A DNA stretch of 64,000 bases, from positions 1 to 64,000 of the forward strand of contig JACEFZ010027049.1 in assembly GCA_014155875.1 (NCBI GenBank), in the 5' to 3' direction. How positions within the stretch are numbered: the first letter of the stretch is position 1; each line of letters starts with the position of its first letter. Shown here piece after piece: positions 12,041-59,371 of the stretch. Source of the stretch: Cepaea nemoralis. Taxonomy: Eukaryota; Mollusca; Gastropoda; Stylommatophora; Helicidae. The position numbers and the translations under genes were made by a program. Under the pieces are notes generated by a model, which had not been told where the DNA came from, ran no database searches, and was given only the letters and a program-made list of their open reading frames with translations.

Positions 12041-12279
12041 ATCGTGTATGTGACTGCCACATTTCCTTACTGCGTCCTGGTGATGCTTCTGGTCCGGGTT
12101 GTCACTCTGCACGGGGCGAAAGACGGCATCAAATATTACATGATTCCCAAATGGCATAAGTTGATCGATCTCCAGGTGTGGGGAGAGGCTGCGGTTCAAA
12201 TCTTCTACTCCATGGGGATGGCTTGTGGGACTTTCATTAACATGGCCAGCTACAACAAGTTCCACCATGACATCTACAA
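12041..12279 (+). CDS. SLC6 transporter exon 5: TM5 and TM6; 3' end is the seed of the 85-bp array
   Basis: Acceptor TACTTTTCAG, phase 0 in; donor AA|GTAAAT, phase 2 out. It encodes [21 protein letters not shown] (TM5), the EL3 stretch [17 protein letters not shown], then [20 protein letters not shown] and [15 protein letters not shown] (TM6). Gln and Ser of QIFYS match Cl-/Na+ ligands of the family. The unwound part of TM6 ([10 protein letters not shown]) is unlike the usual glycine-rich G-x-G-x-G run, which may bear on substrate choice. From 12234 the exon end, its donor and the first 40 bases of the intron are repeated tens of times downstream. Confidence 0.94.
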
Positions 12280-13826
12280 GTAAATATAGCGTGTTTCTGC
12301 TTGTAGTCTTACATTATATCATTAACATGGCCAGCTACAACAAGTTCCACCATGACATCTACAAGTAAATATAGCGTGTTTCTGCTTGTAGTCTTACATT
12401 ATATCATTAACATGGCCAGCTACAACAAGTTCCACCATGACATCTACAAGTAAATATAGCGTGTTTCTGCTTGTAGTCTTACATTATATCATTAACATGG
12501 CCAGCTACAACAAGTTCCACCATGACATCTACAAGTAAATATAGCGTGTTTCTGCTTGTAGTCTTACATTATATCATTAACATGGCCAGCTACAACAAGT
12601 TCCACCATGACATCTACAAGTAAATATAGCGTGTTTCTGCTTGTAGTCTTACATTATATCATTAACATGGCCAGCTACAACAAGTTCCACCATGACATCT
12701 ACAAGTAAATATAGCGTGTTTCTGCTTGTAGTCTACATTATATCATTAACATGGCCAGCTACAACAAGTTCCACCATGACATCTACAAGTAAATATAGCG
12801 TGTTTCTGCTTGTAGTCTTACATTATATCATTAACATGGCCAGCTACAACAAGTTCCACCATGACATCTACAAGTAAATATAGCGTGTTTCTGCTTGTAG
12901 TCTTACATTATATCATTAACATGGCCAGCTACAACAAGTTCCACCATGACATCTACAAGTAAATATAGCGTGTTTCTGCTTGTAGTCTTACATTATATCA
13001 TTAACATGGCCAGCTACAACAAGTTCCACCATGACATCTACAAGTAAATATAGCGTGTTTCTGCTTGTAGTCTTACATTATATCATTAACATGGCCAGCT
13101 ACAACAAGTTCCACCATGACATCTACAAGTAAATATAGCGTGTTTCTGCTTGTAGTCTTACATTATATCATTAACATGGCCAGCTACGACAAGTTCCACC
13201 ATGACATCTACAAGTAAATATAGCGTGTTTCTGCTTGTAGTCTTACATTATATCATTAACATGGCCAGCTACGACAAGTTCCACCATGACATCTACAAGT
13301 AAATATAGCGTGTTTCTGCTTGTAGTCTTACATTATATCAATAACATGGCCAGCTACGACAAGTTCCACCATGACATCTACAAGTAAATATAGCGTGTTT
13401 CTGCTTGTAGTCTTACATTATATCATTAACATGGCCAGCTACGACAAGTTCCACCATGACAACTACAAGTAAATATAGCGTGTTTCTGCTTGTAGTCTTA
13501 CATTATATCATTAACATGGCCAGCTACGACAAGTTCCACCATGACATCTACAAGTAAATATAGCGTGTTTCTGCTTGTAGTCTTACATTATATCATTAAC
13601 ATGGCCAGCTACGACAAGTTCCACCATGACATCTACAAGTAAATATAGCGTGTTTCTGCTTGTAGTCTTACATTATATCATTAACATGGCCAGCTACAAC
13701 AAGTTCCACCATGACATCTACAAGTAAATATAGCGTGTTTCTGCTTGTAGTCTTACATTATATCATTAACATGGCCAGCTACAACAAGTTCCACCATGAC
13801 ATCTACAAGTAAATATAGCGTGTTCT
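12234..13826 (+). repeat. 85-bp minisatellite from the exon 5 end and donor, block 1 (19 copies)
   Basis: The anchor CATGGCCAGC recurs at 12241, 12326, 12411, 12496, 12581, 12666, 12750 and then every 85 bp to 13770. Each unit holds the last 13 codons of exon 5 ([13 protein letters not shown]), the donor AA|GTAAAT, ATAGCGTGTTTCTGCTTGTAG and TCTTACATTATATCATTAA. Copies are almost identical; AAC/GAC at the Asn codon is the main variant (GAC in 13175-13600). Confidence 0.97.
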
Positions 13827-14704
13827 GCCAAGTCTTACCATGAATTACAGTAAATACAAGTTTCCTTGACTTTACATTAATATACTTTCACTTGCAGCTA
13901 CATTACATATTACATGCATCTACAAGTATACATGTTTTCTTAGTAATTACATATTCTGCTAACAGTCCACATTAACATTACATGACAGCTACGAAGTATA
14001 CATGTTATTTATTAACATATAGGTTTACATGGCTTCACATAATTACTGCACTACAGTAAATATCACATTTCTGCAGTAATTACATGTTCTCTAGTCTTAC
14101 AATAATAATGCGTGTTCCCCTGAATCTACATAAATATACTGTTCTCTAGTCTTACATTACATTAAATGGCCGTCACAGTTCCCCATAATCTAAGAAATAA
14201 CGTTTCCTGATCTACAATAATTAACTGGCCGCTAAGTCACATACATTACAGATAACGTTTCTGCTTTACTTAATATACTTACTGCCGTACAATTCACATA
14301 CATTCAAGTAAAAAGGTTTCTGCTTTATTAATATACTTACTGCCGTACAACATTCACATACATGCAGTAAAATCGCTTGCTTAGTATTACTTTTCATTAC
14401 ATGATACAACAGTCCAGCTCACAAGTTCACTGTTCTAATTAGCTTTTTCTTAGCTACAAATACATACATGCCAGTAAAAAGTTCCTTGATCTACATTATA
14501 TCTTACTGCCGTACACAATTCAATACATCCAGTAAAAAGTTCCTTGATCTACATTATATCTTACTGCCGTACACAATTCAATACATCCAGTAAAAAGTTC
14601 CTTGATCTACATTATATCTTACTGCCGTACACAATTCAATACATCCAGTAAAAAGTTCCTTGATCTACATTATACTTACTGGCAGCTACAATGCACTACA
14701 TGAC
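13827..14704 (+). repeat. Degenerate middle of the 85-bp array
   Basis: Short pieces of the unit (CTTACATTA, CCGTACA, AGTTCC, CTGCTT) occur in order but compressed and scrambled; four nearly identical 60-bp units lie at 14470-14690. Decay this uneven between near-perfect blocks suggests a consensus or assembly problem rather than age. Confidence 0.8.
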
Positions 14705-17700
14705 AGTAAAAGTTCCACCATGACATCTACAAGTAAATATAGCGTGTTTCTGCTTGTAGTCTTACATTATATCATTAACATGGCCAGCTACGACAAGTTC
14801 CACCATGACATCTACAAGTAAATATAGCGTGTTTCTGCTTGTAGTCTTACATTATATCATTAACATGGCCAGCTACGACAAGTTCCACCATGACATCTAC
14901 AAGTAAATATAGCGTGTTTCTGCTTGTAGTCTTACATTATATCATTAACATGGCCAGCTACAACAAGTTCCACCATGACATCTACAAGTAAATATAGCGT
15001 GTTTCTGCTTGTAGTCTTACATTATATCATTTAACATGGCCAGCTACAACAAGTTCCACCATGACATCTACAAGTAAATATAGCGTGTTTCTGCTTGTAG
15101 TCTTACATTATATCATTAACATGGCCAGCTACAACAAGTTCCACCATGACATCTACAAGTAAATTATAGCGTGTTTCTGCTTGTAGTCTTACATTATATC
15201 ATTAACATGGCCAGCTACAACAAGTTCCACCATGACATCTACAAGTAAATATAGCGTGTTTCTGCTTGTAGTCTTACATTATATCATTAACATGGCCAGC
15301 TACAACAAGTTTCCACCATGACATCTACAAGTAAATATAGCGTGTTTTCTGCTTGTAGTCTTACATTATATCATTAACATGGCCAGCTACAACATAGTTC
15401 CACCATGACATCTACAAGTAAATATAGCGTGTTTTCTGCTTGTAGTCTTACATTATATCATTAACATGGCCAGCTACAACAAGTTCCACCATGACATCTA
15501 CAAGTAAATATAGCGTGTTTCTGCTTGTAGTCTTACATTATATCATTAACATGGCCAGCTACAACAAGTTCCCACCATGACATCTACAAGTAAATATAGC
15601 GTGTTTCTGCTTGTAGTCTTACATTATATCATTAACATGGCCAGCTACAACAAGTTCCACCATGACATCTACAAGTAAATATAGCGTGTTTCTGCTTGTA
15701 GTCTTACATTATATCATTAACATGGCCAGCTACAACAAGTTCCACCATGACATCTACAAGTAAATATAGCGTGTTTCTGCTTGTAGTCTTACATTATATC
15801 ATTAACATGGCCAGCTACAACAAGTTCCACCATGACATCTACAAGTAAATATAGCGTGTTTCTGCTTGTAGTCTTACATTATATCATTAACATGGCCAGC
15901 TACAACAAGTTCCACCATGACATCTACAAGTAAATATAGCGTGTTTCTGCTTGTAGTCTTACATTATATCATTAACATGGCCAGCTACAACAAGTTCCAC
16001 CATGACATCTACAAGTAAATATAGCGTGTTTCTGCTTGTAGTCTTACATTATATCATTAACATGGCCAGCTACAACAAGTTCCACCATGACATCTACAAG
16101 TAAATATAGCGTGTTTCTGCTTGTAGTCTTACATTATATCATTAACATGGCCAGCTACAACAAGTTCCACCATGACATCTACAAGTAAATATAGCGTTGT
16201 TTCTGCTTGTAGTCTTACATTATATCATTAACATGGCCAGCTACAACAAGTTCCACCATGACATCTACAAGTAAATATAGCGTGTTTCTGCTTGTAGTCT
16301 TACATTATATCATTAACATGGCCAGCTACAACAAGTTCCACCATGACATCTACAAGTAAATATAGCGTGTTTCTGCTTGTAGTCTTACATTATATCATTA
16401 ACATGGCCAGCTACAACAAGTTCCACCATGACATCTACAAGTAAATATAGCGTGTTTCTGCTTGTAGTCTTACATTATATCATTAACATGGCCAGCTACG
16501 AACAAGTTCCACCATGACATCTACAAGTAACTATAGCGTGTTTCTGCTTGTAGTCTTACATTATATCATTAACATGGCCAGCTACAACAAGTTCCACCAT
16601 GACATCTACAAGTAAATATAGCGTGTTTCTGCTTGTAGTCTTACATTATATCATTAACATGGCCAGCTACAACAAGTTTCCACCATGACATCTACAAGTA
16701 AATATAGCGTGTTTCTGCTTGTAGTCTTACATTATATCATTAACATGGCCAGCTACGACAAGTTCCACCATGACATCTACAAGTAAATATAGCGTGTTTC
16801 TGCTTGTTAGTCTTACATTATATCATTAACATGGCCAGCTACGACAAGTTCCACCATGACATCTACAAGTAAATATAGCGTGTTTCTTGCTTGTAGTCTT
16901 ACATTATATCATTAACATGGCCAGCTACAACAAGTTCCACCATGACATCTACAAGTAAATATAGCGTGTTTCTGCTTGTAGTCTTACATTATATCATTAA
17001 CATGGCCAGCTACAACAAGTTCCACCATGACATCTACAAGTAAATATAGCGTGTTTCTGCTTGTAGTCTTACATTATATCATTAACATGGCCAGCTACAA
17101 CAAGTTCCACCATGACATCTACAAGTAAATATAGCGTGTTTCTGCTTGTAGTCTTACATTATATCATTAACATGGCCAGCTACAACAAGTTCCACCATGA
17201 CATCTACAAGTAAATATAGCGTGTTTCTGCTTGTAGTCTTACATTATATCATTAACATGGCCAGCTACAACAAGTTCCACCATGACATCTACAAGTAAAT
17301 ATAGCGTGTTTCTGCTTGTAGTCTTACATTATATCATTAACATGGCCAGCTACAACAAGTTCCACCATGACATCTACAAGTAAATATAGCGTGTTTCTGC
17401 TTGTAGTCTTACATTATATCATTAACATGGCCAGCTACAACAAGTTCCACCATGACATCTACAAGTAAATATAGCGTGTTTCTGCTTGTAGTCTTACATT
17501 ATATCATTAACATGGCCAGCTACAACAAGTTCCACCATGACATCTAAAAGTAAATATAGCGTGTTTCTGCTTGTAGTCTTACATTATATCATTAACATGG
17601 CCAGCTACAACAAGTTCCACCATGACATCTACAAGTAAATATAGCGTGTTTCTGCTTGTAGTCTTACATTATATCATTAACATGGCCAGCTACAACAAGT

Positions 17701-17842
17701 TCCACCATGACATCTACAAGTAAATATAGCGTGTTTCTGCTTGTAGTCTTACATTATATCATTAACATGGCCAGCTACAACAAGTTCCACCATGACATCT
17801 ACAAGTAAATATAGCGTGTTTCTGCTTGTAGTCTTACATTAT
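14705..17842 (+). repeat. 85-bp minisatellite, block 2 (about 36 copies)
   Basis: Near-identical 85-bp units from 14705 to 17842, anchors at 14779, 14864, 14949 and on to 17765. Single-base insertions (for example at 15034, 15166, 15311, 16197, 16806) are scattered only through the middle of this block. GAC variants cluster at 14779-14871 and 16750-16850. Confidence 0.97.
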
Positions 17843-18160
17843 ATTTGTCATCCTACATTATATTATACAGTCTTACATCCAATGTGCTATGTCTTGTATT
17901 ATACGTGTTAAGTCTTACTTTCTATTTGTCCAGTCTTCTTGTGCAGTCTTACATTTTATTTATTCGTTCTTACAGTCTACTTGTTCGTTCTTATCTTCTA
18001 CTTGTTTGGTCCTACTTTATATTTCAATAACGAAGACACAAACAATAGATTGCACGATTTATTGTCTGGCATATTTCACTGCATCGCGTCAGGTACATAC
18101 TACCGAAATCAAACAATACAAACTAAAGTAATTAAATAAATCCTTCAAGCTGAAATATGA
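17843..18160 (+). repeat. TCTTACTTNTA-type degenerate repeat and short interspersed repeat
   Basis: 17843-18020 is built of CAGTCTTACATT / GTTCTTATCTTCTACTTGTT steps, echoing the CTTGTAGTCTTACATTATAT part of the 85-bp unit. 18041-18110 matches 10769/11041. Confidence 0.55.
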
Positions 18161-18161
18161 C

Positions 18162-18530
18162 TTGCAGCTTGCCGTCTTAACAGACAATAGTTTGTAAAAT
18201 GGAGTTATACCTCTCCATAACACAAAGCAAGGGCTGAGTTTAGAGATTATGTGTTGCCCATGCAGCATGATCACTCTCTCGGCCTAACTAGTTTACTCCA
18301 GAGGAAATGCAACACCAACTCGTCTGGAACAAGACAAGCTGCAGAAGCTGTCGGATCAGCAAAGCAATACTCTAACTGTCCGCCTGTCGGAGCTTCCATC
18401 CTTGACAATATGCCGGCCAAGGCTTACGGCCTGGTCTGCCTTGCCATGACATTAAGTCTTTAGGTTGCATTTCCTCGCACTAGGCTTGTACCCTTCCAAT
18501 TCCACTCCTCCGCCCGAAGTCGTTGGGACA
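18162..18530 (+). mobile_element. Repeat F, 5' part, cut by a hAT insertion
   Basis: GCCGTCTTAACAGACAATAG, TGTTGCCCATGCAGCATGAT and GCTGTCGGATCAGCAAAGCA identify repeat F. It continues after the hAT element at 21438-21560. Confidence 0.8.
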
Positions 18531-18926
18531 ATGTAGATCAGTGTTTCCCAACCTTTTTTGTGCTATGCCCCACCTAAGCCTTTCTAAAATTCTTACCCCC
18601 CCCCCCCCCCCCACCCCCCCCCCCCTCTTTCTCCCAACATATACATAATTTTCAATATTCAAAAATTTTAATTTTCACTAAGAAAACTTGAATGATATGT
18701 TTTAGGAATAAATGACTAGAAAATTATTGAGCAAACACAGTAAGTAAATTTTCAAAACATGTAATGGAGAACTGAAATTCAAGAACAAAATAATTTTAAT
18801 GAAAGATTTTTCTATATTATTTTAATTATTAATAATTATTTATTATTTAAATTTAGTGAGATCCTTGCGCTTGATGCTTGCTGCAAAGAAATTTTAGGTC
18901 AGGTTCCAAATTAATTAACTTCAGTC

Positions 18927-20640
18927 TCAAGTCTCCCAATCCAGCTGATTTCTTTCTTTCTTTTTTTTTTTTTTTTTAAGCAGCAAATCATGTATGGCAC
19001 TAAATCCGCATTCAGCTAAATATGAAGATGGAAACGGTAACAATAGTTCTCTTGCACATTTGGTTGCATTTGGATATTTAATTTCGGTTTCCTCACAAAT
19101 CCATGCCATCGCTCCTTTTATATTAAATAAAGCTTTTTTAATTGACTCATCATTTTGCATTTCTGCGAGTTCTTCTTGATACTGCATATTTATATCAGAC
19201 AAATCCACTAACATTGGCTGCATCACCCAAGTTGGGAAATCAATTTGTTTCAAATCAGAAAATCATTCTTTTAAATCAGCCGATAAAATTTTCAGATGAT
19301 CGACAATAATATATATAGCGGTATCCGTCACTTCACATTTTTTGAGCCAATGAAACTTTTCAAAATTTTTGTTTTAAATATATGTCTGACATAATTCAAT
19401 AAAGGTAATGAACCAAATATTTTCACTTTTGCATCGACAAGAGTTTTATTTGTTTTTTGAAGTTGTTTATTTAATATATTTAGTTTTTCAAAGCTATCGG
19501 CTAAATAACTCACAAATGCCTTACCATCGACCGTTAACTGATTTTTCATTTCAGGTTTGTCGCTTAAAACATGACTAAGAGTATCAAATAGTTCCATCAA
19601 TCTTTTCAAGCAGTTCCCTTTCGAGAGCCATCTTACTTCAGTGTGAATCATAAGTGTCACATGGTTTTCATTTTGTTCTTCACAAAATAACTTGAAGAGA
19701 CGTTCACATTTGACATTAGCTTTAATAGCATTGATACACTTTATAACTAAATTTAGTACTTCATTTAGAACAGGCGAAATGTTTTTAGCTACCAGGTTTT
19801 CCCTGTGAATAACACAATTCACCAGAAGCATTTATGGATTCTCATCTTTCTTCAATTTTAAGCAACCATTTTTCTTCCCCCATCGTAATAGGATGGATCT
19901 GCAGCACAAGATGTTAAATGTTTCATTGGTATATTATTGACATCTAATTAATAATTTTCGCTTACTATATATATCTTTGGAGGTAGTGGTGCTTTCTAAT
20001 GATTTACAGTACAACATTTCTTCCGAAAAATCACCTTTCTCAATATATCTTACGTAAGTTATAAATAAGGCCTCACTGTCTCTCAAAGTTGATTCATCCA
20101 TTTGCACCGAGAATTTTCTTGTTTTCAGCTTTTCAACAAGATGTATTTCAATAACTTCACTCATTTTGTCTATTCTTCTGCTAACAGCATTGTTACTTAG
20201 TTTCATAGCTTTAACGTCTTTGTCATCTTTTTTCCAGAACCGCGTTAAGAAATGCTGATATTTATGTGTTGATTAAATTCTCCCCTATAGTGACTTTTCA
20301 CAGATTTAGCGATGAGTAATAAAATTTGATAAAGAGCCTCAAGAATACGATTGATAGTTGCATTATGAGCAGTAAATAGAGACTTTAATGTTACTCTTTT
20401 TTCAAAATGTTTCTTTAAAGTTTAAAAGTAATTCAAATCTGAATTAATATGAGCATTATGTTTCGCCTTCAAATGTGCCTCAAGACGACCTCGTTTTATT
20501 GATTCGTTGGTCAAGCATTGCTGGCATAAAAGACAAAAAGGTGACCGTTCATCGTGGACAGCGGGTATGAAACCAAATTATAAATATTCCTCCGAATACT
20601 GACGAATTGTTTTTCTTACTTGCACCACTCATTTCACTAT
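18927..20640 (-). pseudogene. hAT transposase pseudogene (ZBED5/FAM200-like, BED finger to hATC)
   Basis: Minus-strand pieces in order: near 20640-20450 SGASKK..., a BED-finger stretch with FCLLCQQCLTNESIKRGRL and EAHLKAKHNAH; 20206-19934 with RRIDKMSEVIEIHLVEKLKT and FSVQMDESTLRDSEALF (the conserved MDEST); 19831-19328 with VNCVIHRENL, HTEVRWLSKGNCLKRLMELF; and 19253-18927 with WICEETEIKYPNATKCARELLL and SYLAECGFSAIHDLL, the hATC dimerisation end. One TAA and at least three frameshifts break it, so it cannot encode an active enzyme. Domain order and the MDEST / VRWLSKG motifs are those of ZBED5/SCAND3/FAM200-type hAT transposases. Confidence 0.85.
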
Positions 20641-20876
20641 GGGCTGAAATAAAGATCAATTTAAAAGTTTAAAAAAAAATATAATATGAACTGGAGTAAA
20701 CGTAGACTAAAAAATGCATATTTAAATATGTTTGGCACATTTACCCTACCGGACAAAAACTTTTTACTTTGACAAATTTTTCCGGAAAATTATGCTTCTA
20801 AAACTGAAATTAATAAAAATTACCAATTGAATTTACATACCTTTTATATATCACTTATATTTATACAATGTATATA

Positions 20877-21197
20877 AGCATTTCGGACTATTTGTTCTGA
20901 ATGGCGCGAAATGCTTAGTGCCAGGATCTCACAATTTCTGTAGTGTTTCGTAGTAACGCTCAGCATTCACCGTTGATGTTAATTTGAAATAAGCGTCCGT
21001 TAAATTGTTGTAAAAGTCTCTTTGTTTATATATATATATATATTAAAACAAAGAGACTTTTACAACAGTTTAACGGACGCTTATTTCAAATTAACATCAA
21101 CGGTGAATGCTGAGCGTTACTACGAAACACTGCAGAAATTATGAGATCCTGGCACTAAGCATTTCGCGCCATTCAGAACAAATAGTCCGAAATGCTT
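20877..21197. repeat. Long palindrome: 150-bp inverted repeat with AT loop
   Basis: 20877-21027 and 21044-21197 are reverse complements with only a handful of mismatches by eye (AAGCATTTCGGACTATTTG against its complement at the far end), around a loop of TA repeats of about 16 bases. The motif AAATGCTTAGTGCC also occurs inside the left arm and just beyond the right arm. Confidence 0.95.
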
Positions 21198-21437
21198 AGT
21201 GCCGGCCTGGTATAACCAGTAGTTCAACGCTAACGTCTAACAATGAAATCACGGCTACTGACATGGCGGACAGAAGTTACTTATACTGGACGTTTACCCA
21301 GCTCAAGTAGCGACTGAGAGTCGCCATACGGTTAACTTACACTCTGGACCAGTCCATTTTCGAATCGCCCCCCCCCCTTAACAATCGAATTGCTCCCTCC
21401 CCCCTGTGGGGCGTGGGCCCCACGTTGGGAAACACTT

Positions 21438-21560
21438 ATGTGGAGTATCGGATTTGGTGTGCGCCGCCGAACATTCGGCGCCAACAGAAAGCAGGTAGTG
21501 CCGTTTACTGCCATACGGTAGCTCAGTCATATCTGACTAAGTCCTGATACACAAGCTGAA
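21438..21560 (+). mobile_element. Repeat F, 3' part beyond the hAT insertion
   Basis: AACATTCGGCGCCAACAGAA, AGGTAGTGCCGTTTACTGCC and GCTCAGTCATATCTGACTAA continue the copy begun at 18162. Confidence 0.8.
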
Positions 21561-22490
21561 ATATACAACTGTGATATATATTTTTCACAAGCCGTCAACG
21601 TCGCTGTGAACATTTCCCGCTATACTATTTCCAGACTACCACCGCAACAGTGCTGGTTTGTTCCACACTTCTAAAAATCCAAATTTTACCAGAATAGACT
21701 TATGTTCGACGTGATAGCCAAAAACCTGCAGGGGGGAAAGCTACATAAAAAGACGAACGACCGGAAAACGGCCTGTTTACATCAACCACGCACGGGACAG
21801 AAAATATCTGAGATAGTTGATGGAGTGACAGCACCCTCTCAATCGAATATTAAAATATAACATAGTTTGATTAATAAGAGGAGGAAGCCTCAGCCAACAA
21901 AGACATCGCATTTGGGAAAACGAATCCAAGGCAGATCTTGAAACCTGTTGTCGACGTGTCGTGAAGCCATGCAACCAAAATGAAGGTAAAAACAATAATG
22001 TTTTAGATTAGTTTAGTCTGTGAGCCTGTTTCCCGAGAAGAGTTGGTAAGTCAATGTGTTGTAAACCACGTGATTAGTCCTTAAGAAATTAATTTAGTAG
22101 AAACTAAATATTATATTCAGTTATCATAGTCATGGATAAACTGTACATTAGGATAAACCACAGTGAGTTTCTGTTTCTCCCAGTCAAACAACTTATTTAA
22201 TGTGTAAGCATTAGACCTAAGTTGTACATTTTATTTCTTAAGTAGTTAAACTCAATCAGCAGTGATTTAGAAGTTGGTGAGTAACTTAAGATTTAGGAGG
22301 CTAAGAATACTTAATGCAGTGGTAAGAAAACTATTTTAAATGTGCAAACACTGGTAAGACAAATTAGTGTAATGTGTAATAGTCAAGTAGATTTTTTTTA
22401 CATGAGCACATGAGAAGTCAAGTAGTTTCTTTTTTTCCATGAGCACATGGGAGCCAAATAGATTTCTATATGTATCATAATTTTGTGTGG
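21561..22490. other. Intronic stretch without recognised features
   Basis: AT-rich intron 5 sequence; no convincing frame or repeat. Confidence 0.5.
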
Positions 22491-23200
22491 TGGGTGAAAG
22501 CACCCATGTGGTGAGTCAAATGTATTTTCATTGTTGTTAACATGTGGATTTATCATTTGTGAGACACATAATAATACCTAATCAACCGCCATGCAAGTGT
22601 GTTTATGATGCATGATGAATGAATGTGGATTGGGTATATCACATAAATATATGTATTTGATGAGAGCATGTGGGGATCCATGTGTAATTTCATTATTGCT
22701 AAACAGGGAAAATCATCCTTCGTGAATCTCATAAGTATGCCTAATGATCACATAAGTCTATGTCATTGAAGAGAGCATGCCTGTGGTGAGTCATGTGTGA
22801 TTTCATTATTGTTAAACAGATGGGAATGTATCATTTGTGAACCACATCAGTATGACTAATTGTCATCCATACAGATATGATTGTGTCTGATGAATGATGG
22901 GGGAATGATTGAGATTCCATTGTAATGTCATTGTTGTTGAATCTGTGAATTTATCATGTGTAAAACACATACATATGCTTAATTGTCAACCATACAGATA
23001 TGATTGTGTCTGATGAATGATTGGGGAATGATTGAGATTTCATTGTGATGCCAATGGTGTTAACATTTAAAGTTAGCATTGGGAAATCAAATAAGTATAA
23101 TTACTTATCTTACATGCAAGTATGAGAATGATTTCTGATGAATGAGTGAAATGATCATCCATGCACATATGAATATTATGTCTGATGAATAAAGAGAATG
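22491..23200 (+). repeat. Degenerate tandem repeat of about 123 bp
   Basis: CATACAGATATGATTGTGTC recurs at 22868 and 22991 (123 bp), with older copies around 22740, 22600 and 23155. Units share TTTCATTATTGTTAA, CATTTGTGAA..CACAT and GATGAATGA. Confidence 0.75.
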
Positions 23201-24183
23201 AGCGAGATGAAGTAACATGCTGAGAAGGAGTATAAGCTGGCAATCAATCTCATGATGGAAGGCAACTTTGATTTATAATGTCCTGTCTATCAGAAGAGAA
23301 CATGCTAATGATAACCCATACACTAACTAATAAATTAGTGCACTTCGACACATGACACTACTTTGTATTAAATATCACTCATGGTACCATCATCTGGTTT
23401 GGTGCCCTAAGCACGACACAACCCATATTACATATCACGCATACTACAAGGATCTGGTTTTGTGTCTTAAGCAAGACTCCACTTTGAATTATAGATCACT
23501 CATGTTAAAACATATGGGTTAGTGTTCTGATGATTATAATGAGAATGATATGATGATTGTAATAACAATGATGATAATGATAATGAGAATGACGATGCTG
23601 ATAATTGAAGTGCAAGCATATTACAGACACGGTGAATAGGAGGGAATATACTCGCCCTGAAACTTTTGATTAGAAAAGAATTCACCTGACTACTATACCA
23701 GAATGGACACTAAGGTGTACTTATATTGTTTATAAGCAACAACTCATTGCAATGGGGAATGATTTAAAAACCCCTTAATGTTTGAGACCCCTTTTCTTTA
23801 ATGGAAGAAGATGTCAGAAAATATCTAGGTACAGAAGAGGATGGACATAGTTGTCAAATTCCAAATAAATCAAGGTAGTAATCAACCTGGAGACCCTGAG
23901 GACAGGCATAGGTGAAGATGAAACTGCACATCTGCTAGTCTAAACCTTGAACACCTTATAATGGAAGATTGGATGGAGAGCAAACAATTATGTTGGTGAT
24001 AACTAACTGAGAACACCAAGACTATCTTTCTCCTATGTTTATTTTTCTCTAGGAACAAGATTCATTTTATTGATTTCACTTGTTGTGTTCTTAGAAGTTT
24101 ACAACATTTCATTTCTGATGTTAATATTGATGATATCATTAGATTTATGATTGATGCTGAAATTTCAGGTAGTGGCTATAACT
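23201..24183. other. Intronic stretch without recognised features
   Basis: AT-rich; a short doublet ATCACTCATG...TCTGGTTTGGTG / ATCACGCATA...TCTGGTTTTGTG (23385-23475) is the only internal repeat seen. Confidence 0.5.
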
Positions 24184-24197
24184 ATAAAGATCCAGAC

Positions 24198-24476
24198 ACA
24201 AGGCAGACGTGGTTGCGGCCTTGTGGGAGCACGTGCACACCTCGGAGGAGCAAATGGATTACCATGGTCTGGCAAGAATGAGACAACGAGGAGTGACGAA
24301 GGGATCTGGCCGACGCTCAACGCTCAGAGGAAAGGCGAGGCGGACTTATAATCAGATTGCTACTGGTACTATTAGTGTTGGAACTCTTCGCTGGCTGCTG
24401 AGGATGGGGACGGAGCACTTATGGGAATGCCCCGAATGCTGTGATGTCGATTCCTAAATCAATCAATCAATCAATC
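24198..24476 (+). mobile_element. L-C LINE, 5'-truncated insertion with 14-bp target duplication
   Basis: The insert encodes ADVVAALWEHVHTSEEQMDY, GLARMRQRGVTKGSGRRS, ARRTYNQIATGTISVG and ends LWECPECCDVDS, stop, then CAAT repeats. ATAAAGATCCAGAC flanks it perfectly at 24184-24197 and 24477-24490. The intact frame and perfect duplication mark a recent insertion. Confidence 0.95.
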
Positions 24477-24683
24477 ATAAAGATCCAGACCTGACTTTGG
24501 TGATAGAAGCAACTTTGCTAAATGCTCTGTGAGAGAGTGGGGCAGAAACCTATCCACGTGCAAAAGTTCCATTTTCCTTATAGGAGAGGTAAAAGTTATC
24601 TAGCATAATTTACCTGCAAAACAATGGAAAAATCTAGAGCCAACTAGAAAATTATACAAACCTGGAAAGTACAACACACTGAA

Positions 24684-24687
<4 letters not shown>

Positions 24688-24770
<83 letters not shown>
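24688..24770. repeat. (AT)n microsatellite
   Basis: About 80 bp of AT/TA with one phase break. Confidence 0.95.
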
Positions 24771-24774
<4 letters not shown>

Positions 24775-24974
24775 TGACTGCTCGGAGCAGGAATCCAAAC
24801 CCACAAGTCACGACAGGGGAGGGCAGACCAATTATTCTGTTTCAGATTTATTACCTCAGAGGATCTGCAGAAAAATTACATGCGAAATTACCTGTTGACA
24901 TAATCCTATGTGAGGAGGAGAGTCACTGCTGAAAATATAATTAAGTGTAAAGATCTTGATGTAAATGAACTTCT

Positions 24975-25006
<32 letters not shown>

Positions 25007-26580
25007 CATGTATGTATTTGACGTATTTCAATTGATTGTTTCAAACAAAAATAACTGTTCATTACTAAATGTATAGTTAATAAATGATGGAAAAAAGGAG
25101 GTCATTTCCCCTCGTGAGTGTATTTCTTTTACTTTTCATAGTCAATTAGTTTAATCAAAAGAACCCTAGATAAAATTAGGTTAACTGAGAGAGGAGAGGC
25201 AGGGAAACACCAAAAGGAGATTTTGGGTATTAAGGGGGAAAACTTGTAAAAGTTTTCCTAGAGGTATTGCTTGGTTTTCTGAGACTCTGTTTATGGACTC
25301 AAGCAACTGAGCCATTAAAGGTTAACATAATTAAACGGGCAGGATCACACTGGGAAAGAGAAACTTAGCATCCTTTCTCTCTTTGGGGTTGAGCCATCAA
25401 CCATACATCTGACAACAACACACATATACACTCAGTAATTTGAATTTTCTACCACTGCATTACCAAATTACTGTATGCCATAGCCCAAAGTTAGGCCATG
25501 GGCCAGCCGGTGCAATCAGGCTACAGCATCATGCAACCCAGCGTGAAGATGTGATGTTCAATAATTTCACCTTGCATGAAATTTGCGAGACGGGGCTGCG
25601 GAGGAGAAGACAGCGTCTCCTGCGGGCAGTTAGTTGAGCTTGAACCACGGTCAGTGTCTGATCGAGGTCTGAGTATAGTAGAATGGCCAAACAATGAGCT
25701 CCTACTTTTATTCATAGATGTGTAGTTATTGTGTCGACTCTGAGCATGTAGTTGTGAAAACGTATATTGTAATTTGTTCAATGCTTGGAGTCAATATAGA
25801 ATGAAAATGGAGTTGTGTGTTGTTATTCCAGACATGTTGAGTTCACTCCAGTTTACGAGTTGTTATGAATAGTCCTGTGCAAGAACTTAAACTTAACTTA
25901 TGACAATGATTGAAAATGAGTCCAGCGAAAAGAACACAGTCGCTAACCAGAAAGGTGCTGACCCAGTTACGTGACCACGGCAGCAACAAATATCTACTTT
26001 GCTTGGCGGTGGAAAAGTCCAGTTATCGATTTAAGTACTGGGAAAGATATGTACAGCACCCGACATACAATCTAGTCTTGGGTAACTTCAACGAGCTTAC
26101 AGCAGTGACCATTAAAGCACGCACATTCAGCCATGGACGATAGTATTATTCTAATTCACCAACAACGAGCTATAACAAGCGTGCTATCTGAAGAGCGTTA
26201 ACAAGCAGAAGCTCCCTACTAATTCAGACGTCTCATCGCTACCTAACATAGCAGTAGCATTGTAAACTTCATGAAAGAAGTGGGACAAACTCCATGGCAC
26301 ATATGGGGAATTCACAACGGAAATGTTGAACTCCGCGTAAGAAAAATTAACCTAGACATAATAATTCTTGGAAAAATAGACAACAGACTTTTGAAAACCC
26401 GAATATGAAAATCGAGAACTGTTTAAAAGGTAAATTATTAAACTTAAATTCAAGTAACAAAGTGTTAAAGTATCAGATACACATTAATGCAAACGTTACA
26501 GCAAACAACGAACATTGACAAGCGTGCAAATTTAAATGACTTTAATATCGTCAACATTCAAGGAAAAGTAACAAAAACAC
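24771..26580. other. Intronic stretch, poly-T at 24977-25006, otherwise featureless
   Basis: Contains a run of 29 T. 25480-25640 is richer in G+C and open on both strands for 60-85 codons, but neither product resembles a known protein. Confidence 0.45.
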
Positions 26581-26587
26581 TTTACAG

Positions 26588-26807
26588 CAGGGGTGGCCAA
26601 CCTTTTCAGCAAGCGGGCCAAATTTCAGAAATAATATTTTCTGCCGGGCCACGCACCTAATTTTTTTTTGTTTTTTTTTTGGTTAATTAAAGTAAACAAG
26701 CAAGCGTGCTACAGCCTCGACCACATCATCGCTTCCCACTCCGCGGGCCGCAATATGACGTCCGGCGGGCCGCATGCTGCCCGAGGGCCTCGTGTTGGCC
26801 ACCCCTG
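26588..26807. mobile_element. Short non-autonomous hAT element (220 bp)
   Basis: Ends CAGGGGTGGCCAACCTTTT and, inverted, CAGGGGTGGCCAACACGAG. Flanking 8-mers CTTTACAG (26580-26587) and TTTTATAG (26808-26815) agree at 6 of 8 positions. GGGCC-rich interior, no coding capacity. The CAGGGGTGGCCAACC terminus is typical of hAT MITEs. Confidence 0.9.
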
Positions 26808-26815
26808 TTTTATAG

Positions 26816-28740
26816 CGATTGGCGAAAATTATTTCAACGCTGTCCGACCGATAAAAGAAACTGGCACACGGTTATGAAGTCAAGAGGTCAAGCCGTTAAG
26901 CTTGTGTAGTTGCCTGACGGAGATACAACACATACAAGATGTTTACATCTGAATTAACGACACGAGATACAACAGGTACAATAATATGTTTTATATCTTC
27001 ATTAACGACATGAGATTTGTAGTCACGAAGAAAGATGCAAGAGACTACTATGTGAACTTCAAAATTCAGCTACATAGACAACGAAAATGTAGAACAATCC
27101 TTACTGGTAGTTACTATGTAAACACAAGCGATCGTGGAGACACATGAGGTCAACTATATGGCCACAGAAACTTAACGCAAGTACACATCAACATAAGACA
27201 GTTGAGTAAGGGAAGATGTGATTTCAAAATTTCATACCGACATCGTGAAGAAAGGCGCTTGTAGAACATTCTGTACAATATCATGGGCATTTAGAACTAT
27301 CTTATTGAAGAACATTTTGTATTAAGAAAATGAACATTTTAGGCAGTGACTCAGTGATCTATAATTTAATTAAGTGTGCTTAAAAAAGTGGACAGTAATG
27401 TACACCAGCGAAATTGTATAGTTATGATTTACAAACATTTTGTGTTAGAAAAAGGACATTTGAGAGTAACAAATTGTGTGATAAAGATACGGACATTGCG
27501 TAGTTCTTATTGATTACCAAGCGTGTGTAGTATTGTGAAATGTCAGTAATGTTTACTGAAGATGTGTTAGATACGTTATTTAAATGTTTATAGTTGCAGT
27601 TGCAATTACAAAAGATGGCCTGCAGTGTAGTAATGGCGACAAAAAGTACAGTAGATCATTGTTCGACAATTAGTTAGATGATTTGGAGATTTTAAAAAGT
27701 AGTGCAGAGTTAACGCTAGCATATAGCAGTAATCAAGTGGTAGATACTTATGTAAACAAAAGATTGGGTGAAGTAATAGTAGAATATACGCTTTTATTAT
27801 CACCGGGTTATTAATATTTATTTTATTAGTTAAAGGAATTAAGTTATTTATTAGTTATTACAATATAAGTAATTTTGGGATGTGTTATAATTATGACCTT
27901 GATATTTAAGTTAGCGTTTGCAAATTATATTTTTACATGATAATTATTTTATGTTTTGTGTTTACAAAATTAACAGTGTTTAATATGAATAGCTAACTAT
28001 TTATTTATGGTTGCATGATTAAGTTCGTTCGATTTAAGTTTACATATTGGGTTTTAGGTAACACTATCAAATAAATTGAATGGGGTTCATTTCGGATCAG
28101 TGAGTGTTCCAGCGTTACGCTGACGATGCGGTGCTCTTTCATAACATCTATATTCCCTTGTGGGCGCTGCATCGGCGGGGTATCGACGGGGTAGTACATT
28201 GGTTAGAGTGGAATTCGTATAAGACTGTTGTCAAGTATTGATAGTATGAGAAGTTAAATCAGAGGTCGGTGATCACCGAGGTGGGTTTGTTGGTTGATTT
28301 GAATGCTCTGAATGGGTCGAATCCATCACGGGGAGCGGCGGTCCAAATGATTTCCAGAAATATTGGTCATATATTTTTGGTTTATGAAAGATTTTTAGGT
28401 TGAAGAGTGAAGTGAACAGCTAAAACTACAGTGTGTCAGCATTCCGTAAAGTGCTTTTGCTCTTTTCATGGTGGCAATTGCGCGTTGCGGAATGATTGAT
28501 ACAAAAGTTAGTTCAGTAGCAGCTGAATACTTGTCTATGGCGGCGCCATAATTTAATAAATGTTTACATTACTAACAGAATTAAATATTGTTGTTTGTTC
28601 ATTCACTTGATACTAACATTTATTTATGGTGCCATAAAGCCACATAGGATGGGTTAAAGATTTGATCTTTAGTCCGAAAGGAGAATAGACAGTTATTTGA
28701 AAGGTGGATATATTACTAAATGAGTATTATTATATATTAT
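26816..28740. other. Intronic stretch without recognised features
   Basis: AT-rich intron 5 sequence of nearly 2 kb. No gene, transposon or tandem repeat was recognised. Confidence 0.5.
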
Positions 28741-28754
28741 ATAGAGAATGATTA

Positions 28755-29134
28755 TTGATTCAGCTGATGACTGTGGAAATGTGGTTTCTGAGGAAAATGC
28801 AAAGAATACCATGGACAGACAGAAAAACCAATGAGCAAGTCCTTCAAGAAACAAATGAAGATCGTAAACTGATTAGAGACATTAGACGTGGACAGTCAAC
28901 ATTTTTTGGGCTTGTTATGAGAAGAAATGAATTGGAGAACTTGGTGACAACTGTCAAGATCGAAAGGAACAGATCAAAGCGAAGACCAAGAAGTAAATAC
29001 CTGGATGGCTTGGCCACGTGGCATGATCGAGACAGGAACACAGAGCTGATCCACGACTCTGGTGATCGAGTGACATGGCAGTACATGACCGCCTACGCTT
29101 ATCAGCATGACACATGATGGATGGATGGATGGAT
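28755..29134 (+). mobile_element. L-B LINE C-terminal fragment with (ATGG)n tail
   Basis: One open frame of 120 codons: MTVEMWFLRKMQRIPWTDRK, LIRDIRRGQSTFFGLVMRR, RRPRSKYLDGLATWHDRDRN and the C-terminus TAYAYQHDT, then ATGATGGATGGATGG. Starts within the C-terminal domain, so strongly 5'-truncated. Confidence 0.88.
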
Positions 29135-29404
29135 TATTGATTAATTTATAAAGAAAATTTATTTTATTTATTTATAAAATACAAAGAGTAAGATTAAATT
29201 TAATAATACTTAGTATTATTATGAACACATGTTTATTATTGTTATTTGATCATTACTATTAAGATTAAGTAATGAATATTTTTAATTATAGAAGAAAAAG
29301 AATACATTTTAGAATTTATTTATAATAATTTATTGATTGACTTGATAGACTGAACTATTGGTTTATAAATTAGGAAAAATTTAGAAATGTTGATTATTAT
29401 TATC

Positions 29405-29640
29405 TTGACCCAAACGGATATCGACCCGGCAATGTTAATGGACTACGAGATAGATCAGCGACTCAAAACATAGGCACAATGAACGTCTGAGGTTTCAGTA
29501 GTAAAGAAGAAGAGCTTATAGAAACAATGGAAGAGGAGACAATTGGACTGATGGGAATAGCGGACACCAGAACAAAGGGGAATGGATGCAAGGAGCTCCA
29601 CCGCATTTACACGTTTGTTTTTACTCTGGAGTTATTTTCT
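29405..29640 (+). mobile_element. L-A LINE 5' fragment, left arm of an inverted duplication
   Basis: Matches 44630-44830: GATATCGACCCGGCAATGTT, ATAGGCACAATGAACGTCTG, then GFSSKEEELIETMEEE and ADTRTKG. It is the reverse complement of about 30530-30700, so the two form inverted arms around the rest of the minus-strand copy. Confidence 0.85.
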
Positions 29641-30765
29641 TGTTATTTGTTATTTTCTTTATCCGTGTTTTGCTTTTTTTCGTGGTTCCACATGTTATTT
29701 TTTGCAGTATTTAAAATGCTTGATTTGAACATCTTCCACTCTTCTTCCAATGTTTTTCTTTCTGTAGGTAATTTTACAAAGAGTTCAGTTAGTTCTTTCT
29801 CATAATTTTCCCTTACTGCCCCGTCTTTAAGGTTTTTTAAGTTTACTGATTCGCATGGCATGTATTTTCCTGCTCTTTGTTTTCTTCTTCTGATGGTTCT
29901 TATTGTGGCAACGACTGCTTTATAATCTGTGTTTATACTTAAATTAGGCACTGCCCTTGCATCTAATATATTTCTCTTTCTGTTATTTCTTGTTAATATA
30001 AAATCAATTTGGCTTTTAGTATCTAGATCGTTCCATTTATACCAGGTGTATACTTATGAATCTTTATGTTTATAGAATGTGTTTGTTATATAGAGGTCGT
30101 GTTGGCTGCAAAGCTCTGTCAGTTTACTTTCGTTATCATTTCTTTCATTATGTTATCTCCAAATGCTCCAAGATGTTTTTCTATGCCCACTCTGTTGTGT
30201 CCTAGTCTTGCATTGAAGTCTCACATAACTATGATGTTGTCCTGCTTATCTATTTTATTTAGCACGTCATGGATGTCTTCGTAGAATTCCTCGCATTCTT
30301 GCTCATTATTGTTTGTATTACATGGTGCATATATTTGTACATATGTTGTAATTGTTTGTTCTTTTATTCTCATTGTTATAATTCTTTCTGATATGTATTT
30401 TATTTCTCCTATTCCTCTTGCTAGACGTGGTTCGATGACTATTCCAACACCGTGTCTTGCCCGTTCTTGCTGTTCTACTCCAGAGTAGACAAATATGTGA
30501 CTGTGGTGGAGCTCCTTGCATCCTTTCCCCTTTGTTCTGGTGTCCGCTATTCACATCAGTCCAATTTTCCTCTCTTCCATTGTTTCTATAAGATCTTCTT
30601 CTTTACTATTGAAACCGTAGACGTTCATTGTGCCTATTTTTTGAGTCGTTGATCTATCTCGTAGCCCATTAACATTTCCGGGTCGATATCCATTTGAGTC
30701 AGTCTATTTATACTTCTTAAGTTTTTTTACGTACGGTATGAAGATCCCCTGCCGGCTTGCTAGGC
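29640..30765 (-). mobile_element. L-A LINE 5' part: APE-type endonuclease region
   Basis: Minus strand reads, in several frames: GTMNVYGFNSKEEDLIETME, RLARGIGEIKYISERIITM, TYVQIYAPCNTNNNEQECEE, IVM.DFNARLGHNRVGIEKH, then NDLDTKSQIDFILTRNNRKR and, open from 29951 to 29643, MPNLSINTDYKAVVATIRTI and VKLPTERKTLEEEWKMFKSS. GDFNAR and TDH-like boxes are the endonuclease signatures (here HIVM-x-DFNARLG and NTDYKAV, His changed to Tyr). No RT follows. Confidence 0.85.
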
Positions 30766-31255
30766 CAGTCGCAGGTTTAGGACATAAATATGACACAGGT
30801 CATCCCCTATGGCGAGCCATAGCCTCATTAACCCATGACCTCGCGGTCATGGTTTCCCGGTCTGCACCACGTGGAGGTGGGGGTTGACTTGTGTAGTCTG
30901 CGGGTCATCGGCAGGCTACTAATTTTCACTTTTTACCCCTCCTAGGAGAGGCTAGCCGATCCCAACCCTGCTGGCTGCAGGGCCATGCGCATTCCACGCC
31001 TTGCAGACTGAGAGATCATACTTTTAGGGATCATTTCTATAGTATGGCCCTGCTGAGACGTGGAATAAACGTGGGCGGCACACAAGCCACGACGACGACC
31101 TTACATCACTCCCTCTGAGCGTGAGCGGGTTGTAGGTTCCACCATGGCTCTCTTGGTGGATCCAACACCTTTGAGGATCGTTATGGGAGCAAGGTTATAC
31201 AAAGGACATGCTACTGAATGAATGAATGAATGAATTAATTAATTAATTAATGAAG
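30766..31255. other. Possible LINE 5' UTR or SINE with (GAAT)n end
   Basis: GC-richer than the flanks, no long frame. GGGATCTTCATAC-like sequence near 30740 is also found at 44579-44594, so the left part belongs to the 5' UTR of L-A on the minus strand. The right end is a GAAT/TTAA repeat at 31216-31253; which element it belongs to is unclear. Confidence 0.4.
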
Positions 31256-31279
31256 TCTGCATCCTTGTTCCCGTCACAG

Positions 31280-31517
31280 AGACGCCATCGCTGTGCCACT
31301 AGTCAGCGGAGTGACCAGCGTCTTTGCCGGGTTCGTCACCTTCTCAACGCTGGGTTTCATGTCACACGAGTCGGGCGTCCCCATTGAGAAGGTCGTGGCT
31401 CAGGGCCCAGGGCTCACGTTCGTGGCTTATCCCGAGGCTGTATCAAGAATGCCGTTTGCTCAGTTCTGGGCCGTAATGTTTTTCTTGATGATATTCACTG
31501 TTGGATTGGACTCGCAG
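31280..31517 (+). CDS. SLC6 transporter exon 6: TM7 and TM8
   Basis: Acceptor CCCGTCACAG, phase 2 in; donor GTATTA after GGATTGGACTCGCAG, phase 0 out. The first base completes Lys; then DAIAVPLVSGVTSVFAGFV (TM7), the loop with FMSHESGVPIEKV, and QFWAVMFFLMIFTVGLDSQ (TM8). The Asp-Ser of GLDSQ are Na2 ligands and are intact. At the place of the Na1-coordinating Asn of TM7, the codon at 31305-31307 is AGC (Ser); the Cl- serine four residues later is kept. This exon is separated from exon 5 by 19 kb. Confidence 0.94.
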
Positions 31518-33236: not shown

Positions 33237-33314
33237 GGAAAGGCAAGAGAAAAAAAAAACATCAGTAATATCGTTTATTATTATAATTATCATCATCATC
33301 ATTATCATCAACAG

Positions 33315-41387: not shown

Positions 41388-41588
41388 GGCGGCATCTACC
41401 TGCTGGAGATCATCGACTGGTACGCCGCCACCTTCTCCTTGATGTTCATCTCTGTGATTGAATGTCTGGTCATCTGCTGGGTATATGGTGTCCAGAGATT
41501 TGCCAAGGACATTGAGTTGATGCTCGGGAGGTCACCGTCTCTCGTCTGGGTGATCATGTGGAAGTATGTCACTCCGATTATTGTCATG
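41388..41588 (+). CDS. SLC6 transporter exon 8: TM10 and TM11
   Basis: Sixty-seven codons, phase 0 at both ends. Acceptor CTATTTCCAG, donor GTAAGT (consensus). It begins GGIYLLEIIDWYAATFSLMF, continues VIECLVICWVYGVQRF (TM10, with the family motif W-x-YG-x-x-RF), then KDIELMLGRSPSLVWVIMWK and YVTPIIVM entering TM11. A minus-strand L-B LINE fragment ends about 25 bp upstream of the acceptor, so nearly all the proximal intron is transposon. Confidence 0.94.
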
Positions 41589-42240: not shown

Positions 42241-42387
42241 TTGTTGTCATATTTCGTTATTTTTCTACAGCCATTTGTGACGTACTTATTAACTTACCCC
42301 GTATTAGAAATGAAACGATTAGATCAGCAAAGTATTGGTTAACAAAGAGTCTTCTCCTTCTTCTATTTCTTCCTTTTCCTCAGCCTT

Positions 42388-42770
42388 CTTCTTCTTCTTC
42401 TTCTTCTTCTTCTTCTTCTTCTTCTTCTTCTTCTTCTTCTTCTTCTTCTTCTTCTTCTTCTTCTTCTTCTTCTTCTTCTTCTTCTTCTTCTTCTTCTTCT
42501 TCTTCTTCTTCTTCTTCTTCTTCTTCGTCTTCTTCTTCTTCTTCTTCTTCTTCTTCTTCTTCTTCTTCTTCTTCTTCTTCTTCTTCTTCTTCTTCTTCTT
42601 CTTCGTCTTCTTCTTCTTCTTCTTCTTCTTCTTCTTCTTCTTCTTCTTCTTCTTCTTCTTCTTCTTCTTCTTCTTCTCTTCCTCCTCCTCTTCCTCTTCT
42701 TCTTCTTTTTCTTCTTCTTCTTCTTCTCTTCCTCCTCTTCTTCCTCTTCTTCTTCTTTTTCTTCTTCATG
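42388..42770. repeat. (CTT)n trinucleotide array
   Basis: About 380 bp of TTC/CTT with two GTC interruptions (42526, 42604) and a CCT-rich right end. Pure pyrimidine on this strand. Confidence 0.98.
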
Positions 42771-44181: not shown

Positions 44182-44352
44182 TACATATCGTCATTTAGTT
44201 TGGGCACTCTTGAACCTGCCAACATTAAGTCCCACACGTCTCCCAGATGGGTTATATTCTTTGGCTGGAGCTTGGCAGCTGCCTCGCTAGTTCCGCTTCC
44301 TGTGGTGGCTTACATTGGCATACTAAGGGAGAAGACTGGTACTATAATACAG
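44182..44352 (+). CDS. SLC6 transporter exon 9: TM12 region
   Basis: Fifty-seven codons, phase 0 at both ends. Acceptor TTATTTCCTCAG, donor GTATTC. It reads YISSFSLGTLEPANIKSH, then SPRWVIFFGWSLAAASLVPL and PVVAYIGILREKTGTIIQ. The W-x-x-x-x-GW and the second hydrophobic segment match TM12 and its lead-in. From about 44300 the 3' end of the exon and the donor are repeated downstream in a degenerate array of about 100-bp units. Confidence 0.92.
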
Positions 44353-44550
44353 GTATTCCATTTTCAATTATTACCTCCTCAGTTTCGATTCGCATAAAAT
44401 GGTATAAAAATTGTGCTATAATACAGGTATTCTGTTTTAAATATTACCTCCCCGATTTCAGTAATTGCCACTTCCTGTGGTGGCTTGGATTGGCATAAAG
44501 AAGGAGGGAACGAGTACAATAATACATGTATTACATTTCTTTTTATTACC
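44300..44550 (+). repeat. Exon 9 donor minisatellite, left part (3 units)
   Basis: Exon 9 end CTTCCTGTGGTGGCTTACAT and donor ATAATACAG|GTATTC (44352/44353) recur as ATAATACAG|GTATTC at 44426/44427 and AATACAT|GTATTA at 44526/44527, the latter preceded by CTTCCTGTGGTGGCTTGGAT. Confidence 0.9.
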
Positions 44551-46694: not shown

Positions 46695-46930
46695 ATCTGC
46701 CCAATTTTAGTTACCCCCGCTTCTTGTAGTAGATTTCATTGGAATAAAGAACGAGAAAATTGGTACTATAATGCATGTATTTTATTTAAATTATTACTTC
46801 CCCAATTTTAGTTCCTTCCCCTTCCCATGGTGGATTTCATTGGAATGAGTGGGCGAAGAATGGCACTATAATACAGGTATTCTATTTCAATTATTACCTA
46901 CTCAATTTTACTTCCTCTGCTTCCTGTGAT
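46695..46930 (+). repeat. Exon 9 donor minisatellite, right part (2-3 units)
   Basis: Beyond the LINE: CGCTTCTTGTAGTAGATTTC...ACTATAATGCAT|GTATTT (donor-like at 46776/46777) and CCCTTCCCATGGTGGATTTC...ACTATAATACAG|GTATTC (46876/46877), exactly 100 bp apart, then CTGCTTCCTGTGATGGGCGG. Confidence 0.9.
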
Positions 46931-49508: not shown

Positions 49509-49823
49509 GATAGAAGAATCTTTTCTACTCCACAGCGCGTCAAAAAACTGGCACAACCGGCTTATAATTGGGGGCCTGCTCACGTTGAAAACAAAATCAA
49601 ATATTTCAAATCTATGGACAAGTTTGAAAAAGAACGCTTTGAAGCGGCCTACTTTGACTTGGACAGAGATCGTTACCTGTCGCGTAGACACGTTGACACA
49701 CGAGACATGACGGTCAGCATAAATGTAGACCCGGCGTATCCAGTCACTCAATATATACTGCCTTTGGAAGTTGTTACATATTTTCCAGTTCTCTCCCATT
49801 GGCATGAAGACGTCGTTGTCTGA
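49509..49823 (+). CDS. SLC6 transporter terminal exon 10: cytoplasmic C-terminal tail and stop
   Basis: Acceptor TTACATTTCCAG, phase 0. The frame begins DRRIFSTPQRVKKLAQPA, then YNWGPAHVENKIKYFKS and continues to the stop TGA at 49821-49823, 104 residues in all. The LAQPAYNWGPA stretch is the typical position of the L-x-P-x-x-x-WGPA motif just after TM12 in SLC6 proteins, which fixes both reading frame and identity. The rest is charged and ends EVVTYFPVLSHWHEDVVV; a terminal hydrophobic/acidic end could bind PDZ proteins, but this is inference. No AATAAA signal is evident in the next 230 bases. Confidence 0.88.
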   Translation, partial: DRRIFSTPQRVKKLAQPAYNWGPAHVENKIKYFKSMDKFEKERFEAAYFDLDRDRYLSRRHVDTRDMTVSINVDPAYPVTQYILPLEVVTYFPVLSHWHEDVVV

Positions 49824-59034: not shown

Positions 59035-59371
59035 GGGACGCAGAGGTGTTTCCAAGGCACCAGGGCCGGGTTTTATACTGGCCAAGACCTATTGACGCGT
59101 CCTCGTCGAGCGTCCTGGGCAACAGGTCCCTTCGGGGTCCTGGCTGAAGTCAATAGGATCGCCGATTCCTCCGAAGTCGGAGAGTGTCTGCCTGTATGGC
59201 GAGGAACCACCAGTCTGCACACCAATAAGCCAGACATGGGACAACGGATACTCACGCAAAACTCAGGTCCTGTTTGACATCACACTGATGTTGGACAACA
59301 GGATGCCTCCATCCGACATACAGGACTTTGCGTTGGAGCTCAAGCCAACGAACACAAGCAAGCAAGCAGCA
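59035..59371 (+). mobile_element. SINE C with 13-14-bp target duplication and (CAAG)n tail
   Basis: Begins GGGACGCAGAGGTGTTTCCA and ends ACACAAGCAAGCAAGCAGCA. AGCAGACAAGTGCG flanks it at 59022-59035 and 59372-59385. About 95% identical by eye to the inverted copy at 62420-62756, with the same 5' start, so this is the full-length unit rather than a random truncation. No clear tRNA head was seen. Confidence 0.93.

Follow-up and report, generated by a model that had tools for sequence, protein, structure and literature searches.

Introduction

A repeat that carries splice donors was reportedly described in 1995 by Turri, Cuin and Porter, who found a minisatellite giving multiple splice donors in IFI6 (6-16 / G1P3) (Nucleic Acids Res 23:1854). 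To our knowledge, competition among donors has been studied mostly with a few engineered sites. Here we analyze a donor-bearing repeat in a gene of the gastropod Cepaea nemoralis. Within the window, by which we mean the whole stretch of 64,000 nucleotides analyzed (contig JACEFZ010027049.1, positions 1 to 64,000 of the forward strand; assembly GCA_014155875.1), the end of exon 5 of an SLC6, glycine-transporter-like gene is repeated together with its donor. Compared with the IFI6 unit of about 12 bp, this exon-5 array has a unit of 85 bp, present as 54 clean assembled units. IFI6 is the closest precedent, since both loci hold a minisatellite supplying splice donors: downstream repeat units there serve as donors (PMC4526556), and protein isoforms are said to result from this alternative donor use, whereas none of the 53 later exact donors of the exon-5 array leaves the reading frame open.

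Other systems resemble this locus in part. In the potato RdRp gene, an intron-exon boundary was duplicated in tandem, giving a new intron (PMC4974935). Like the exon-5 array, this case involves a live gene with a tandem duplication that crosses a splice junction, but it comprised one duplication, on the acceptor side, with intron gain, whereas here many copies extend across the donor and lie in an existing intron with no sign of a new one. The same study describes genes of fission yeast in which 24-bp AGGT exon segments have been duplicated multiple times and an intron may span several copies (PMC4974935). These also consist of several tandem copies with splice signals; unlike the exon-5 array, however, the segment is exonic, the intron extends across two or four duplicates, and the repeat itself forms the intron. 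Finally, the variable number tandem repeat (VNTR) of TERT intron 6 is, like the exon-5 array, an intronic tandem repeat; it affects splicing through RNA pairing, and its repeat number can alter splicing (PMC3948165). Our literature search, from which subscription papers were mostly out of reach, turned up no further donor-bearing minisatellite.

Results

The array occupies positions 12234-17843 of the plus strand, at the start of intron 5, where an 85-bp unit is repeated head to tail. Each unit comprises the last 46 nt of SLC6 exon 5, the donor AA|GTAAAT, and 39 nt of intron in total; the exon part amounts to 14 whole codons plus two part codons, rather than the last 13 codons given in an earlier note on this DNA. 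Tandem Repeats Finder (TRF) reported a period of 85 with 66.0 copies at 12234-17844 and a score of 7933, the highest of 74 rows in this repeat-rich window. Tandem units of one length and sequence, within the range of about 10-100 bp, make the array a minisatellite, and the potential donor in its units makes it a candidate splice-donor minisatellite of the IFI6 type. The duplication breakpoints have about 1 nt in common (GACTT|TCATT, TATA|TTTGTC).

Circular alignment to the 85-mer yielded 54 clean units, namely nos. 1-18 (12234-13762, plus strand), of which unit 1 is the exon end (12234-12279) with the start of the intron, and nos. 34-69 (14772-17843, plus strand). Among these, 34 match the consensus exactly, so that the near-identity previously ascribed to the units holds for the clean ones. 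Over their roughly 4590 bases we found 14 substituted cells of five types: A21G in ten units (12-17, 34, 35, 57, and 58) and T4A, T40A, C44A, and A51C in one unit each. There are also one deletion (unit 6) and 12 single-base insertions, every one of them within units 37-58. The array contains 54 exact occurrences of CTACAAGTAAAT, a sequence absent from the rest of the window's plus strand, and past 17843 no unit match rose above shuffles (0.208 versus 0.183, standard deviation 0.029).

The repeated segment belongs to a transporter exon, as had been proposed. Exon 5 (12041-12279, plus strand; 239 nt, phase 0 to 2) was recognized by Pfam SNF (E 7.2e-31), by tblastn, and in translation, and exon 6 (31280-31517, plus strand) by Pfam SNF (E 5.5e-28), behind the acceptor CCCGTCACAG. 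The two exons cover SNF profile positions 205-283 and 285-364, and joining 12279 to 31280 creates the split codon AA|A, which encodes Lys, the residue between the two profile segments (junction HDIYKDAI). In a 14-row alignment with 13 homologues this join is gap-free at the junction, which supports the earlier proposal that the first donor (12280-12285, plus strand), here taken as the true one, fits exon 6 in phase. The joined 159 residues match 104 solved sequences, glycine transporters ranking near the top, and their junction is gap-free in two inspected alignments.

The wider gene is consistent with this assignment. Using six gastropod proteins, with the results of three inspected, tblastn placed ten open SLC6 exons (A-J, numbered here 1-10) in consecutive order between 305 and about 49.8 kb, and the joins computed for exons 1-2 and 4-5-6 preserve the reading frame. 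An SNF domain over its exons (Pfam was run on three), open frames, and GT-AG junctions identify an SLC6/SNF gene, which looks intact at the sequence level. Its closest database proteins, among the best 120 of 6775, are glycine/proline-transporter-like proteins of gastropods and other molluscs, the best match sharing at most 71% identity across 77% of the query; this search scored just the 7977 candidates with the most words in common. At least one exon likely lies upstream of the window.

The array contains 54 exact donors, from 12279 to 17804. Because the exon-5 frame runs into TAA directly at the first donor, each later donor brings in a stop: none of the 53 later exact donors keeps the frame open, and open-frame isoforms are excluded for all of them. 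A 58-nt unit cassette, running from the unit's TTGTAG to the next donor, also yields a stop. The sequence thus predicts that normal protein is possible from the first donor copy only. The earlier note spoke of an array of equal copies, which is accurate for their sequence but not for their outcome. A coding repeat was ruled out, as the unit length of 85 cannot be divided by 3 and TAA closes the exon frame at the donor.

All four substitution types within the exon-derived part are non-synonymous in the exon-5 frame (T4A, Ile to Asn; A21G, Asn to Asp; T40A, Ile to Asn; C44A, Tyr to stop), A21G alters an Asn that is invariant in the 14-row alignment, and unit 1 carries none of them. Since every change in the exon part is non-synonymous, the copies show no coding constraint in this small sample. 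In every clean unit a GT and an AG lie 27 nt apart, and the protein alignment needs no intron from the duplicated segment.

A stop behind every later exact donor would also suit a working switch, or poison-donor rheostat, in which later donors and cassettes give stop-bearing mRNA and the length of the array tunes transporter output. The pyrimidine share of the unit's TTTCTGCTTGTAG is 0.69, inside the 0.56-0.81 of the gene's seven tested acceptors, which makes unit cassettes conceivable, and TERT provides an instance of VNTR-dependent splicing at intron 6 (PMC3948165). However, the near-identity of the units is explained by recent spread, and the decay of older donor copies at exon 9 (described below), two of four having T for G before GT, speaks against lasting selection. 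We consider such a switch unlikely.

The array is not uniform. The stretch at about 13826-14715 (plus strand), which the earlier note passes over, is an eroded block of the same 85-bp unit, marked mainly by deletions and fitting partially to two registers. Aligned to the unit, 13843-14691 gave 814 matches, 422 deletions, 25 substitutions, and 10 insertions. Two segments, 14105-14335 (231 of 231 bases matching, 107 deletions) and 14501-14680 (180 of 180, 85 deletions), contain no substitution or insertion and are ordered subsequences of the unit. For these two segments we rejected a diverged old array as the origin, given deletions without any substitution; the messier left end at 13843-14104 (227 matches, 91 deletions, 23 substitutions, 12 insertions) is compatible with that origin by the same test. 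The intervening 14336-14500 has 158 matches, 90 deletions, 6 substitutions, and 1 insertion.

The block was also compared with a second register. As a whole it matched there at 754 bases, with 89 substitutions and 6 insertions, an imperfect fit that scored 0.410 per base versus at most 0.115 for random deletions and at most 0.178 for a repeated random 58-of-85 pattern (10 runs each). The corresponding values were 0.508 versus 0.144 and 0.267 for 14501-14680, and just 0.299 versus 0.156 and 0.180 for 14105-14335 (40 runs each). The kept fraction of the block, 0.68, is close to the common-subsequence share of shuffled units (0.656); long arrays compared at set offsets share common subsequences of 0.84-0.88, and such arrays can perhaps slip into phase. 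A reverse-strand mixture was rejected as the source of the block, scoring 0.155 per base, slightly above shuffles (0.116, standard deviation 0.011) and far below the forward strand (0.628). We infer that the block is a long-read consensus artefact in which reads of different registers were merged. As a consequence, the earlier figure of about 55 copies counts clean assembled units rather than true copies: the amplification of the donor as an 85-bp minisatellite is real in the assembly, but the figure is not supported as a biological copy number.

If one part of the array is an artefact, the array, or most of it, might be one or a few copies multiplied in assembly. Both the artefact-like appearance of this 0.9-kb block and the single-base insertions in units 37-58 would fit such an origin, as single-base insertions are typical of unpolished long reads; their confinement to these units looks like poorer polishing inside the array. 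Multiplication in assembly is nonetheless quite unlikely in our judgement. A21G is common to runs of neighbouring units (12-17, 34-35, 57-58), a pattern that speaks for multi-unit copying inside the array, and the outer units beside both unique flanks are clean. Moreover, a consensus artefact of the kind proposed for the block needs multiple copies to arise, in this case many copies in different registers.

RNA folding offers another way for one donor to be chosen among many. Here, a predicted stem in each unit (CUACAAGUA with UGCUUGUAG) would lie across the donor and mask the inner copies while the first stays open. This stem is present in the minimum-energy fold of a single unit (z -1.96; 9 of 200 shuffles did as well), and in one setting the predicted opening energy of the first donor was 4.38 kcal/mol, compared with 4.65-6.54 kcal/mol for units 2-11 and 5.47 kcal/mol for a single-unit control. 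At other lengths, however, the signal weakens (z -1.49 for 50 nt and, in wider contexts, 0.21 for 124 nt and 0.11 for 533 nt). Nor does the first donor exceed 60 random GTs in openness; their mean opening energy was 4.18 kcal/mol, and half of them were at least as closed. Across nine settings, the first donor opened more easily than the inner copies u2, u3, u5, u10, and u45 in six and not in the other three, and the last copy, u69, opened more easily than the first in five. RNA structure as donor selector was rejected as not robust across settings, and we regard it as very unlikely that folding decides.

The same gene contains a second donor duplication, which the earlier note did not mention. 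At exon 9 (44182-44352, plus strand; donor CAG|GTATTC), BLAST against the window detected four plus-strand copies spanning the exon end, the donor, and 24-34 nt of intron (E 8e-9 to 1e-19): 44388-44459 (partial, 76.7% identity), 44468-44551 (77.4%), 46717-46808 (76.3%), and 46816-46908 (82.3%). The duplication as a whole, with its four diverged copies, covers 44291-46908, and a reverse-transcriptase element (RVT_1, in frame at 45542-45805, E 4.7e-11) lies between copies 2 and 3. CAG|GT is kept in two copies and reads CAT|GT in the other two. Read-through past the exon-9 donor hits a stop before the next donor. Their divergence and decay suggest that these copies are older than the exon-5 array.

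In the gene as a whole, BLAST against the window detected junction-crossing copies at two of nine donors and none of ten acceptors; the end of the last exon, which has no donor, likewise gave none. The boundaries used in this search differed from the final ones by 12 and 3 nt at the acceptors of exons 9 and 10 and by 2 nt at the exon 8 donor. In a control of 300 random intron positions, 44 had a same-strand copy no more than 6 kb away, and 116 had any crossing match. Two of nine donors versus 44 of 300 random intron positions does not show enrichment of duplication at splice junctions; the junctions are merely not spared from it.

Several further features of the window were recorded. Inspection of the boundaries placed exons 8 and 10 (H and J) at 41388-41588 and 49536-49823, and a CTT array (42385-42767; 128.3 copies, 94% matches) lies between exons 8 and 9. 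The exon 7 acceptor region (33280-33314) is ATC/ATT-rich with scant usual pyrimidine tract (pyrimidine share 0.62). A 34-bp minisatellite at 47-304 (7.6 copies, 79% matches) abuts the acceptor of the exon at 305, the first one in the window, and its last partial copy provides TTCTAATTGTTGGCAG ahead of that exon; BLAST against the window detected no repeat match from this minisatellite into the exon. Near-identical translated segments at 59073-59279 and 62512-62769, on opposite strands (e.g., LTSARTPKGPVAQDARRGRVNRSWPV), suggest a dispersed repeat family.

Discussion

We consider it quite probable that the exon-5 array is an intronic minisatellite seeded by a donor-crossing duplication and tolerated through use of the first donor. 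A tandem duplication straddling the exon 5/intron 5 boundary would have given two copies, of which the upstream one remained the exon end with the true donor, while further copies fell in the intron. These intron copies would have multiplied by slippage or unequal exchange and been kept alike by recent expansion or homogenisation; a recent expansion is suggested because the clean units are near-identical. The later copies would act as decoy donors, equal in sequence, although use of a later donor or of a unit cassette gives a stop. The spliceosome would mostly take the exon-proximal first donor, with stop-bearing products destroyed, and the gene would tolerate the array through this choice and this loss. 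A parallel for the proposed exon-proximal preference comes from C. elegans unc-73(az100), where a donor doublet created by duplication 18 bases downstream sees less use than the original donor upstream of it (PMC8865678). The similar, older pattern at exon 9 also favors a donor-crossing duplication. A duplication of this kind may survive because the upstream exon and its donor stay intact and the additional copies come to lie in the intron.

Several observations weigh against this explanation. When pairing energies with U1 were calculated, the exon-5 donor was the weakest of seven tested (-3.3 kcal/mol; others -5.2 to -10.4 kcal/mol); it has no G at -1 or +5, and 30% of the 3264 plus-strand GTs outside the array are as strong. 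With so weak a first donor, its clean use among many copies is not obvious, and its predicted opening energy is not reliably below that of the other copies. The eroded block blurs the length of the array, and the assembled copy number is untrustworthy in either direction. In addition, for exons 3 and 7-10 the joins were assessed by visual inspection of the boundaries.

A broader idea is that this lineage repeatedly amplifies exon ends and donors into the next intron (twice here, one case fresh and one decayed), and that such arrays are temporary, tunable banks of poison donors that lower or regulate gene output. We find this improbable.

Under the favored explanation of a tolerated, donor-seeded minisatellite, the exon-9 copies show what a donor array may look like after decay, and the block at 13.8-14.7 kb is a reminder that assembled arrays may conceal consensus artefacts of this type. 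The locus presents a native gene with 54 exact assembled copies of one weak donor, only the first of which is predicted to yield the protein, and hence a natural test of how splicing picks among identical donors. Should transcripts show a clean join of 12279 to 31280, the choice must depend on position alone (exon-proximal and first transcribed); if the join is not clean, the leak would be countable wherever units differ, at A21G and the other variant positions.

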